Assembly (NCBI GenBank): GCA_015064155.1
Contig: SVST01000001.1
Coordinates: 62,001 to 126,000 of the forward strand
Length of the DNA: 64,000 bases
DNA from: Oscillospiraceae bacterium
GTDB lineage: Bacteria > Bacillota > Clostridia > Oscillospirales > CAG-272
Direction of reading: 5' to 3'
Shown here: piece after piece, positions 11,485-20,839 of the stretch
How positions within the stretch are numbered: position 1 is the stretch's first letter
How the letters are laid out: each line of letters opens with the position of its first letter
Program-made: the position numbers and the translations under genes
Notes under the pieces: generated by a model
The model's input: only the letters and a program-made list of their open reading frames with translations
Database searches by the model: none
What the model was told of the DNA's origin: nothing

Positions 11485-11542
11485 AAAGGTGACTTTTACA
11501 GATTGAAGCGTCTGCTTATGCAATATGGAAAGGAAGCTCTAT

Positions 11543-14068
11543 ATGAAGAAAAGAATCGTTTTGTTTGTTGTCGGCATTTTGATGCTGAGCATTCTGGCGG
11601 TCGGCTGTTCCAAAGAAAAGGGGGACGCTGAAGAATCCGCACACATCCACGATTTTGGGAAATGGAAGGAAACGCAGGCACCGAGCTGTGAGGAGCACGG
11701 CATCCGAGTCAGAACCTGCCGGGATTGCGAGGAGCAAGAAAGCGAGGAGGTTTCTGCATCGGGACATCATTTTGATGCGGACGGTCTTTGTAAAAATTGC
11801 AATGCCGATCTGTCGGAAATAGGGCTTGAATTGTTTTTGGAGGAGGACGGATATACCGTTCTGTCCTACGAGGGGAACGCTCCCTCGTTGACCTTGCCCG
11901 ATACGTATCTCGGAAAGCCGATCGTCAAAATCGGGACGAGCGCATTTTCCGAGTGTACCAAGCTGGAATCACTCACGCTCCCCGCAAACGTCAAAACAAT
12001 CGGGGATGCCGCGTTTTACAAATGTACCGCGCTTCGTGAGATCGTCTTACCCGAACGGCTGCAGAGCGTTGGAAACAGTGCCTTTGCATTCTGCTTTGAA
12101 TTACAATCAATTGAGCTTCCCGTGGGCGTGACGTCCTTGGGAGAGTCCGCTTTTTTAAACTGCGGAGCCTTGAACGTCATACGGTTGACCGATCATATTG
12201 TGGACATTCCGCAAGCTTGCTTTTTCGGATGCGGATCCTTGCAGGAACTTACGCTTCCCGCACAGCTGCGCACGATTGGGAAAACCGCTTTTTCCAACTG
12301 CTCACAACTGAAAACCATTGTCTTTCCGAGCACGCTGCAGAGCATCGGAGAGGGGGTTTTTGAATCTTGCTTTGCTTTAACCGACGTCGTCATTCCAAAC
12401 AGCGTGACCTATCTCGGCAGCGGCGCATTCAGTGCTTGTACGAGCCTTCTGACCATTACGGTTCCCGGCAGTATTTCGGTGATCCCCGATTCTTGCTTTG
12501 CCGATTGTAAATCCTTGAGTAGCCTTACGGTCGGTGACGGAGTGCGAGAGATCCAATTCAATGCGTTTGGGGATTGCAAAAAGCTTCAAGCCGTTGTCAT
12601 TTCGCCAAGCGTTACCGAGGTTCATGAGGAAGCCTTCTTTGGATGCGACGGAATTTTGAAGGCTACCGTTGCGGTTTCGCACGTGTCTGTGCTTCCCAAA
12701 ATGAATCTGGAGGACGTGACCTTGAATTTCGGGGATCGCGTCAGCTCCTACCTGTTTTACGGCTGTGCGAATTTGAAAACGGTTCAGTTGACCGAATCGA
12801 TTTCCAAAATCGGTACGGAGGCGTTTGCAAATTGCACCTCGCTGACGGAATTTATCATTCCAAAGAGTATTACGGAAATCGGCAGAGCCGCTTTTTCGGG
12901 TTGCACTGCGCTGCAACGGGTGGAAATTCCCACGTCGATCACGAAAATTGAGCAATCGCTCTTTGCGGGATGCACGGCACTGACCGAGATCACGATTCCC
13001 GACAGCATCACGCACGTCGGCTATCAGGCCTTTTTGGGATGCAGCGGGTTGACACACGTGACCGTTCCCGACAGTGTGAAAGAGATCAGCCAAGGAGCAT
13101 TCGCGGAATGCAGCTCCTTGACGTCGGTCAGCTTGCCCTTTATCGGTAGGGTCAACGGAACCGTTTCTCCTCAGTATTTCGGATTTATCTTCGGTGCAAG
13201 CGTTGCAAAAACGCAAGGCGAATTCGTTCCCGCTTCGCTGAAAACCGTGGAGATCAGATCGGGCGTGCAGATTTCTCCCTCGGCATTTGAGGGGTGCAGA
13301 TCGCTTGTATCGATCAAATTGCCTGCAACCATCTCCCAAATCGGGGCGGCTGCCTTTAAGAATTGCAGCTCGCTTTCCTCGTTTGCTTTTCCGCAGGGAA
13401 TAACGGAGATTGCCAAAGAGGCATTTGCGGGGTGTGAATCCTTCACCGAGCTTTTGCTTCCCACGTCGGTGAAAAAGATTGGAGATTCCGCATTCAAGGG
13501 GTGCAACGGGTTAGAGAGCTATACGGTTCTCGGAAACGTGACCCAAATCGGGAGATTGGCTTTTGCCGACTGTCAGGCACTTCGTGAAGTGATTCTTTGC
13601 GAGGGCGTACAATCGATCGGAGATCAGGCGTTTGCAAGGTGTACCTCCTTGACGGATGTCAAGATTGCCCAAAGTGTTACTTCGGTTGGTAATACCGTTT
13701 TCTTGGGGTGCGGTCCCGCATTGGAATTGGTGGACGGGATTTATTACGTTGACACGTGGGTGGTTGGCTACGATCCTGCGGCAACCGTGGGTGCTTTGCG
13801 AGAGGAAACGGTTGGCGTAGCATACCAAGCGTTGTATTTCAGCAATTTTACCGTTCTTACCATGAGCGATAACGTCAGATATATCAACGACCAAGCCTTT
13901 GCAAACAGTACGGCACTTCAACGGATCGAGCTTTCAGAGGGACTGGTATCGGTTGGAAATCGGGCATTTTATAACTGCCGAAATCTGACGAGTGCTACGA
14001 TTCCGTCTTCGGTTGTCAATCTTGGCGAGGAAATTTTCTTCGGCTGTGACTTGTTGGTGACCGAATAA
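11543..14068 (+). CDS. BspA-type leucine-rich-repeat surface lipoprotein
   Basis: This 841-residue protein starts with a lipoprotein signal (MKKRIVLFVVGILMLSILAVGC; lipobox LAVGC, Cys22). A short His/Cys-rich segment follows (HDFGKWKET, then CRDCEEQ and CKNC), which may bind metal. From about residue 120 to the end there are some 25-30 LRR_5 repeats of about 23 residues with the pattern IGxxAFxxCxxLxxVxIP. One interruption with SPQYFGFIFGAS (near residues 545-555) and a non-repeat patch near 735-765 break the array. Such proteins are displayed on the cell surface and in other bacteria mediate adhesion. The start at 11543 is preferred because AAAGGA lies inside the alternative start at 11525. 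It is a single-gene unit with its own promoter and terminator. Confidence 0.85.
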   Translation: MKKRIVLFVVGILMLSILAVGCSKEKGDAEESAHIHDFGKWKETQAPSCEEHGIRVRTCRDCEEQESEEVSASGHHFDADGLCKNCNADLSEIGLELFLEEDGYTVLSYEGNAPSLTLPDTYLGKPIVKIGTSAFSECTKLESLTLPANVKTIGDAAFYKCTALREIVLPERLQSVGNSAFAFCFELQSIELPVGVTSLGESAFLNCGALNVIRLTDHIVDIPQACFFGCGSLQELTLPAQLRTIGKTAFSNCSQLKTIVFPSTLQSIGEGVFESCFALTDVVIPNSVTYLGSGAFSACTSLLTITVPGSISVIPDSCFADCKSLSSLTVGDGVREIQFNAFGDCKKLQAVVISPSVTEVHEEAFFGCDGILKATVAVSHVSVLPKMNLEDVTLNFGDRVSSYLFYGCANLKTVQLTESISKIGTEAFANCTSLTEFIIPKSITEIGRAAFSGCTALQRVEIPTSITKIEQSLFAGCTALTEITIPDSITHVGYQAFLGCSGLTHVTVPDSVKEISQGAFAECSSLTSVSLPFIGRVNGTVSPQYFGFIFGASVAKTQGEFVPASLKTVEIRSGVQISPSAFEGCRSLVSIKLPATISQIGAAAFKNCSSLSSFAFPQGITEIAKEAFAGCESFTELLLPTSVKKIGDSAFKGCNGLESYTVLGNVTQIGRLAFADCQALREVILCEGVQSIGDQAFARCTSLTDVKIAQSVTSVGNTVFLGCGPALELVDGIYYVDTWVVGYDPAATVGALREETVGVAYQALYFSNFTVLTMSDNVRYINDQAFANSTALQRIELSEGLVSVGNRAFYNCRNLTSATIPSSVVNLGEEIFFGCDLLVTE

Positions 14069-19875: not shown

Positions 19876-20624
19876 TTATGTCTCTTGAAAATGAATCTCT
19901 TCGTAGGAAATCTCGCTGTTTTCCCCCAGCAGAATGCTTGCCCATTGCTCGGCAGTTCCTTTGTACGTAATTATTTCAAAGTAACAGTAAACGTCATCGG
20001 AAACGAAGCGCAAACTGACGGGAATCGTGATGCTGCTGGAGGAGAGTGTATCAGAACCGCTTGCAATACCGATTGTGCCGTCGCGGATTACGGATGCCGA
20101 ATTATATCTGATCATCCAATTGCCTACGTAGACGATACCGCCCTCCGCTTTGCGCATCTGCAAGCAACCGTCGAAGGCTTGCACCCCAATATGGGTCACG
20201 CTGTCCGGAATATCAAGGTTTTTCAACTGCGTACATTTGTAAAATGCATACTCATTGATCGTTGTCAGCGTGGAGGGAAGAGTCACCGTTTTTAATTTGC
20301 TGCAAAGATCAAAGAGATGATTTTCAAGAACCGTCACTCCCTCGGGGATGCTGACGGTGGTCAAAACAGAGCAGTTCTTGAAAGCCTCCTCAGCGATTTC
20401 GGTTACAGCATTGCCGAGTGTGATGTCGGTCAGCTTGATGCAACTCAAAAAAGCACCTTTGCCGATTTTTTCAACACCGTTACACGCGTGTATGAGATCG
20501 GGATTGAGCGTCCCCTCTTCGTTGCAAACGGTTACGGTTTTCAGCAGTGAACACTCCGCAAAGGAAGCATGGAAACCGACAGTGTGAGTGCCAATCCGAT
20601 TGAAAGAAGTCGTTTTTTGTTCAT
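19876..20624 (-). pseudogene. Frame-broken leucine-rich-repeat surface protein gene
   Basis: A good start (AAAGGAG, then ATG at 20622-20624) opens a signal-peptide-like sequence, MNKKRLLSIGLALTLSVSML, but that frame stops at 20541. The LRR_5 coding sequence lies in another frame. It is open from before 20580 (VGFHASFAECSLLKTV) through ITEIAEEAFKNCSVL and INEYAFYKCTQLKNL to the stop at 19876. It has no ATG with a ribosome binding site of its own. The simplest reading is a frameshift between about 20545 and 20620, with loss of most repeats compared with the 841-residue LRR lipoprotein at 11.5 kb. A sequencing error would also explain it. The 190-codon downstream part could start at TTG 20448, but no ribosome binding site supports that. 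Confidence 0.7.
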
Positions 20625-20644
20625 TGTTTTCTCCTTTGTTGATG

Positions 20645-20807
20645 AAAAATAAAAAATGCGTAGCCGAAGCTACGCAAAAAAACGCATAGCTCCGTTTTGC
20701 TGCGACACAACTTTCGTCCTAAAAAGGTAGGCGAAAAAAGAGTATACGTTTTTATCGGGAAATAAAAACGCTACCGATTTTTAGAACGTATTCAGTTGTG
20801 TCGCAGA
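20645..20807 (-). promoter_or_regulatory. Structured leader with terminator (riboswitch-like), class unknown
   Basis: Read on the minus strand, RNA would begin close to 20807 with a perfect 13-bp stem (20795-20807 with 20700-20712). This encloses a second stem (20772-20785 with 20719-20730) and a 9-bp hairpin (20763-20771 with 20747-20755). A 16-base pyrimidine-rich bulge lies at 20731-20746. Next comes a terminator: TGCGTAGC/GCTACGCA with a TTCG loop (20657-20676) and a T-rich tract down to 20645. GCTATGC (20684-20690) can pair with the terminator's 5' arm, forming an alternative hairpin around seven T. The RBS and ATG follow at once. This is the layout of a transcriptional riboswitch or attenuator, but I recognise no known class; T-box and c-di-GMP hallmarks are missing. 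Confidence 0.55.
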
Positions 20808-20811
20808 TTCA

Positions 20812-20839
20812 TTATAGCGCACCGAAATGCTTTTGCAAA
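20812..20839 (-). promoter_or_regulatory. Promoter for the structured leader and LRR gene
   Basis: TATAAT on the minus strand (20812-20817) has a TTTGCA-like -35 (20834-20839) 16 bases upstream. Transcription should start at the first base pairs of the leader stem. Confidence 0.65.

Follow-up and report, generated by a model that had tools for sequence, protein, structure and literature searches.

The window analysed here, a stretch of 64,000 nucleotides, carries on its minus strand a gene (19876-20624) that opens with a signal-peptide-like frame of 27 codons (20624-20541) and continues as a BspA-type LRR sequence in another frame. Because the LRR is open in a frame different from that of the ATG, the gene, as read, appears to be disrupted, unless a sequencing error is responsible, in agreement with an earlier sequence-only reading that had placed a riboswitch-like leader of unrecognised class before a broken LRR gene. 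The leader has Spo0A and SpoIVA as neighbours. The window also contains an open LRR_5 gene of 847 residues with a lipoprotein-like start (11525-14068, plus strand), which has no leader of this family.

The leader was read directly from the sequence on the minus strand, with every coordinate re-read by script. It is preceded by a -35-like element, TTTGCA (20834-20839), and a -10 element, TATAAT (20811-20816), the latter not preceded by TG and placed one base off in the sequence-only reading (it lies at 20816-20811), pointing to a transcription start (+1) at 20804. The 5' strand of the closing stem P1, GCGACACAACT (20794-20804), begins at this putative start, and its 3' strand (20702-20712) is supported by folding and by covariation in alignment A1, described below. 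The 13-bp stem proposed previously is a real inverted match (20806-20794 with 20712-20700), its coordinates off by one, but the transcribed P1 would be of 11 bp and not 13 (20804-20794 with 20712-20702), because transcription probably starts at G20804. P1 encloses a GAATA bulge (20789-20793, its ATA at 20791-20789) and helix P2, of variable sequence, with a 5' strand (20778-20788) backed by the fold and a column-pair scan and a 3' strand (20715-20725) by the fold. Helix P3 pairs a 5' strand (20771-20775; fold and A1 covariation) with a 3' strand at 20726-20730 (fold), and hairpin P4, CGUUUUUAUU / GAUAAAAACG (20747-20770), was identified by the fold and the column-pair scan. The inner helices and the one-sided bulge of 16 bases between P4 and the 3' strand of P3 (20731-20746), which had been noticed before, are all present in the fold.

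Two segments complete the predicted switch. The inner arm, AAAAACGUAUACUCU (20739-20753), is assigned by complementarity, covariation and partner permutation as the pseudoknot partner of a switch strand, GGAGCUAUGCGUUUUU (20678-20693), which may pair alternatively with the 5' arm of an intrinsic terminator to form an antiterminator. The terminator (20651-20676) consists of a hairpin with a TTCG loop (20676-20657) and a T-run, as read earlier, and is followed by the equally anticipated ribosome-binding site AAAGGAG (20631-20637, read directly; 20637-20631 in the direction of transcription) and ATG (20624-20622). Folding of 20812-20640, a stretch that takes in 8 bases upstream of the presumed start, gave -63.1 kcal/mol, where shuffled sequences averaged -33.0 (z -8.5) and 0 of 200 were as stable, bearing out the folding check that had been suggested. 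The second partner suspected for the terminator 5' arm proved real, the antiterminator pairing (20694-20683 with 20676-20665) being the minimum-energy fold of the window copy.

Relatives, distribution and promoter

A blastn search of the window copy against its own genome (E up to 0.001) returned only itself, other copies being recovered with a covariance model, while the same approach against 60 relatives yielded homologues with promoter, stem and terminator in common. At an E cutoff of 0.01 the model (R1), built from the 28 sequences of alignment A1, matched 31 of the 35 genus genomes, with up to 12 copies in a relative's genome. Seven copies were among the matches listed for the host genome and eight were counted; we claim seven, as the eighth may be a weak match or an opposite-strand echo. 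The 64-kb window itself holds one copy (a weak opposite-strand echo of 23.8 bits was ignored). At least 144 of 394 genomes (37%) matched in a sample of the order spanning 73 of its 168 genera, as did at least 88 of 392 (22%) in a sample of the class, and in a phylum sample of 299 the host genome was the sole match among the best candidates per genome under strict filters. In these three samples scoring was confined to the top 7-9 candidates per genome, under strict filters, so that copy numbers are capped and genome counts are lower bounds, and the phylum sample doubled as a specificity control made of genomes rather than of shuffled sequence. A degenerate pattern was found in at least 117 stretches of GTDB genomes; the 80 matches listed were mostly MAGs titled Clostridia, Oscillospiraceae, Ruminococcaceae, Ruminococcus or Monoglobus, many of them, judging by their titles, from the guts of deer, goat, sheep and rabbit.

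The plasmid collection gave no match with the window copy as query, and viral contigs gave one. With only the L086 copy as query, stretches 77-79% identical were seen in MT835845.1 (2076-2235) and MT837627.1 (2227-2354), two unannotated records from human faeces titled 'Bacteriophage sp.'. The element was absent from the spoIVA neighbourhood at 29 other loci (33 other genomes had a match), among which no empty orthologous site could be read because the gene order around spoIVA differs.

For comparison across copies, the best 113 other matches and the 7 of the host genome were fetched, of 150 among the matches listed, giving 119 distinct copies, to which 125 further distinct copies were added out of 152, the rest being partial at the ends, duplicates or weak opposite-strand matches. 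Of the resulting 244 distinct copies, one could not be parsed; the other 243 were 133-241 nt long and were divided into three subtypes (A, 132; B, 86; C, 25) that differ in length and in the sequence of the switch strand. Tandem pairs of complete units separated by gaps of about 45-105 nt were observed at three loci (L210, 2160-2377 and 2482-2701; L268, 6458-6614 and 6661-6827; L357, 1501-1658 and 1726-1884).

The promoter belongs to the conserved unit. The consensus of 242 upstream regions, counted from the first base of P1, is TTGACA at -35 to -30 and TGnTATAAT at -15 to -7, and 163 of the 242 regions matched at least 10 of the 12 hexamer positions, against 12 of 1210 shuffles. As this sigma-A-type promoter lies at a fixed spacing, pointing in 212 of 243 copies to a start at the base that opens P1, that base is probably +1. 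Of the 212 copies with a -10 element in the standard place, 186 have an ATA that starts between +14 and +16, and 57 have any ATA in the control stretch from +31 to +40. This trinucleotide near +15, which may serve as a bend, as a binding site or as a signal for promoter-proximal pausing, and an RRCAA in the linker are the few conserved unpaired bases.

Covariation and the two partners of the switch strand

In alignment A1, 94.8% of the cells of a structure composed of P1, P3, the pseudoknot and the terminator were paired and 87 cells had changed on both sides, a result that 0 of 500 shuffles (which do not remove relatedness) and no slid version of the structure came near. Both-sided changes occurred at 7 of the 11 P1 pairs, and the pseudoknot helix was 96.3% paired. 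A scan of all column pairs with APC, on 97 sequences aligned by covariance model (9 of 106 rows had been dropped as at least 85% identical), identified 40 pairs above the top value of 6 column permutations, which again do not remove relatedness. Pairs in P1, P3, P4 and the terminator are among them, although this alignment (A3) had already been fitted to these helices by its model. Outside the model, pairs were detected in P2 and at the P2/P3 border, at positions read as the pseudoknot (91-201, 94-200, 96-199, 100-194 and 82-208, the last being A-T in the window copy and G-C in most copies) and at positions read as an alternative extension of P4 (59-96 and 54-100); five pairs (176-180, 106-164, 112-165, 118-132 and 96-120) had no structural reading. 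Two columns covaried with two others each, 96 with 59 and 199, and 54 with 120 and 100, which suggests that single bases have more than one partner, as they would in a switch, although indirect coupling could contribute. The A1 shuffles and the column-pair scan point to a conserved, covarying structured domain, as in a riboswitch, and the compensatory changes proposed as a check, in stems and terminator alike, exceeded those of shuffles. The pseudoknot and the relatives had no place in the sequence-only reading and were added by covariation and by the genome searches.

The switch strand (GGAG..UUUUU) finds its complement in AAAAA..CUCC of the inner hairpin, with a pseudoknot helix of about 15 bp in example copies and duplex energies between -20.5 and -13.6 kcal/mol (5-95%, 243 copies), and a second complement in the terminator, spanning its 5' arm and loop. 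In an ungapped register, applied to the 238 of 243 copies with an anchoring A-run, positions N1 to N4 were paired in 201, 183, 186 and 167 copies, values reached by 0, 0, 0 and 4 of 2000 shuffles. Permutation of partners within subtypes (2000 rounds, which do not remove relatedness) gave mean duplex energies of -14.1 kcal/mol for the pseudoknot, against -16.8 in the natural copies (z -19.1, n = 243, 0/2000), and of -12.3 against -14.2 kcal/mol for the antiterminator (z -12.6, n = 221, 0/2000), the weakest subtype result being that of the antiterminator in B (1/2000). The loop, the inner arm and the switch strand are all altered together in some subtype C copies with a terminator loop other than UUCG, L084 for example.

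The complementarity thus supports mutually exclusive folds in the expression platform, but other measures were weaker or negative. On A1 the antiterminator was 93.2% paired, not above shuffles (115 of 500 by cells paired, 71 of 500 by score), and when the 3' segment was folded alone the antiterminator won in only 17 of 243 copies, so that it was rejected as a general minimum-energy fold. Swapping switch strands between copies made it the minimum-energy fold in 36 of 729 cases, and comparison of the two proportions indicates that the minimum-energy measure carries little signal. Because the antiterminator wins in so few copies, antitermination must be kinetic or assisted. The pseudoknot linker is short (8 nt in the window copy) and has to pass P1 and P2, for which a sharp bend is needed; the ATA bulge may be that bend. 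It is pure speculation that in the off state a U-A-U triple helix might arise from three conserved runs, the U's of P4, the A's of the inner arm and the U's of the switch strand.

Genes behind the element

A ribosome-binding-site-like motif with an ORF occurred within 300 nt of 229 of 244 copies, at a median distance of 22 nt (a bare count without chance control), and in 190 of 244 a qualifying start codon lay within 59 nt of the terminator. No qualifying ORF was found in 15 of 244 copies, 11 of which have 215 nt or less of downstream sequence. The next ORF shared the strand of the element in 79 of 90 cases downstream and in 56 of 91 upstream, as judged with a crude ORF caller; a count of ORF overlap (49/91) was set aside since this caller retains spurious frames. 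Both figures (229/244 and 79/90) are consistent with a 5' leader of a same-strand gene, the position of a riboswitch.

The 229 downstream proteins are diverse. Single-linkage clustering gave a largest cluster of 78 members, examples of which were mainly LRR and lipoprotein-like, and other clusters of 15 SLOG-like proteins (named from sequence), 13 small Cys-rich proteins and 6 XRE-like regulators. Pfam analysis of 129 of the 229 found LRR_5 in 27, the largest family, and HTH_3 in 6, and no metabolic theme emerged from Pfam, NCBIfam, PHROGs and PADLOC for these 129 proteins. Members of the cluster of 13, found behind the copies at L082, L084, L114, L115, L132 and L134, are encoded 20-21 nt downstream of the element and share a motif like ITGVELTPGEPxVCLGNGEQGFECCCDECDYYLLCFPEFDP. 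Those of the cluster of 15, at L126, L128, L133, L139, L143 and L147, are small proteins that resemble SLOG/DprA by eye (FCGH...YLGGYGGFD).

A candidate riboswitch, its alternatives and known RNAs

We consider it likely, from the arrangement and covariation of these sequences, that the element represents a new family of cis-acting transcription-attenuator RNAs and is a riboswitch candidate. The P1 domain would present the inner arm, which would capture the switch strand in the pseudoknot, leaving the terminator arm free, so that the terminator could form and switch the gene off. Without capture, or after release, the switch strand would instead keep the terminator 5' arm occupied until RNA polymerase has passed, and the gene would be on. 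Because the fold is kept before unrelated genes across many families, the likeliest signal would be a ligand of the P1/pseudoknot domain, either a small molecule or an ion, and the placement of the module, promoter included, before many unrelated accessory genes makes these a regulon. Against a riboswitch stand the conserved unpaired bases, fewer than expected of an aptamer, and the lack of a common metabolic theme downstream.

These same features bear on a reading that we regard as possible yet unlikely, in which the leader is a protein-dependent antiterminator and a trans-acting RNA-binding protein chooses the fold by binding the GAATA bulge and the linker. The scarcity of conserved unpaired bases besides the ATA near +15 and RRCAA, the great diversity of the regulon and the failure of the antiterminator to win by energy alone in most copies would all suit such a protein, but no gene common to the copies was found among the first downstream genes. 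A switch with no dedicated ligand, in which the folds compete during transcription under the influence of temperature, transcription speed or magnesium, would likewise be compatible with one strand that has two alternative partners and with the little conserved unpaired core; we judge it doubtful, as the same fold before unrelated genes in many families suggests a common specific signal. The short tandem gaps, too short for a usual gene, imply that the first unit may yield a free-standing RNA, and promoter and terminator do delimit one of about 155 nt. Even so, a trans-acting small RNA with an incidental gene, towards which the copies lacking a qualifying ORF would also point, is improbable in view of the close start codons in most copies and of the joint variation of switch strand and terminator. 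A mobile inverted-repeat element (MITE or selfish repeat) merely carrying a promoter and terminator, the alternative already raised by the sequence-only reading, accords with the scattered copies, several per genome, with the tandem units and with the absence beside spoIVA elsewhere, but is highly improbable, because the inverted repeat P1 is internal to a conserved unit running from the -35 element to the terminator, with the promoter outside it on one side and switch strand and terminator on the other, rather than terminal, because ORFs show a strand bias, and because the promoter and both alternative pairings are conserved, the pairings tracking sequence changes from copy to copy; the window copy was also unmatched among plasmids.

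The preferred reading, a riboswitch candidate of unrecognised class, is further supported by comparison with catalogued RNAs. At Rfam 15 gathering scores no family, c-di-GMP, SAM, TPP, preQ1 and 6S among them, was detected on the window copy, the check that had been called for, or on the elements of 35 other loci: 18 of these loci gave tRNAs only, and the further 17, searched at E up to 0.5, gave no match on the elements. A relaxed search of the window copy (E up to 10) returned only sub-threshold matches, the best with an E of 0.056. The freshwater-2 RNA (RF02980) resembles the element in a weak 25-bit match over the switch strand, terminator, ribosome-binding site and ATG, which is below its gathering score of 49.9 and does not cover the P1 domain.

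In pseudoknotted transcriptional riboswitches such as preQ1-I and fluoride, too, formation of an intrinsic terminator depends on the state of one strand, for which a pseudoknot competes. The element differs from these in having no Rfam match, in its length of 133-241 nt and its pseudoknot helix of about 15 bp, in a predicted +1 that coincides with the start of the closing stem and in the unrelated accessory genes behind its copies. T-box leaders share the 5' position, the choice between terminator and antiterminator and the many copies per genome in Firmicutes, but no Rfam model reached threshold on the element, and the T-box model presumably belongs to the library searched. Like c-di-GMP riboswitches, the element occurs in multiple copies per genome before varied genes; it differs from them in fold and in its lack of an Rfam match.

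A pipeline for structured-RNA candidates of the human microbiome could have caught pieces of this RNA (PMC8040213), and a partial earlier listing is possible. No description of it was found in the literature searched, which covered abstracts and passages of PMC8040213 and PMC11109978. A large RNA family present in many gut Clostridia, with several copies per genome, has apparently gone uncatalogued.

Since one strand has two partners, direct mutational tests of the proposed switch are possible. We tentatively suggest, as a broader picture less probable than not, an unrecognised riboswitch distributed across much of one class that responds to a common signal, possibly a signalling nucleotide or ion, and governs a large accessory regulon of gut Clostridia, spreading as a promoter-plus-switch cassette before new genes. 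A predicted RNA switch without an Rfam 15 match is present in at least 37% of the order and at least 22% of the class sample genomes, and, if it senses a common signal, that signal would control many poorly understood genes of gut bacteria, among them those for LRR lipoproteins, small Cys-rich proteins, SLOG-like proteins and regulators.
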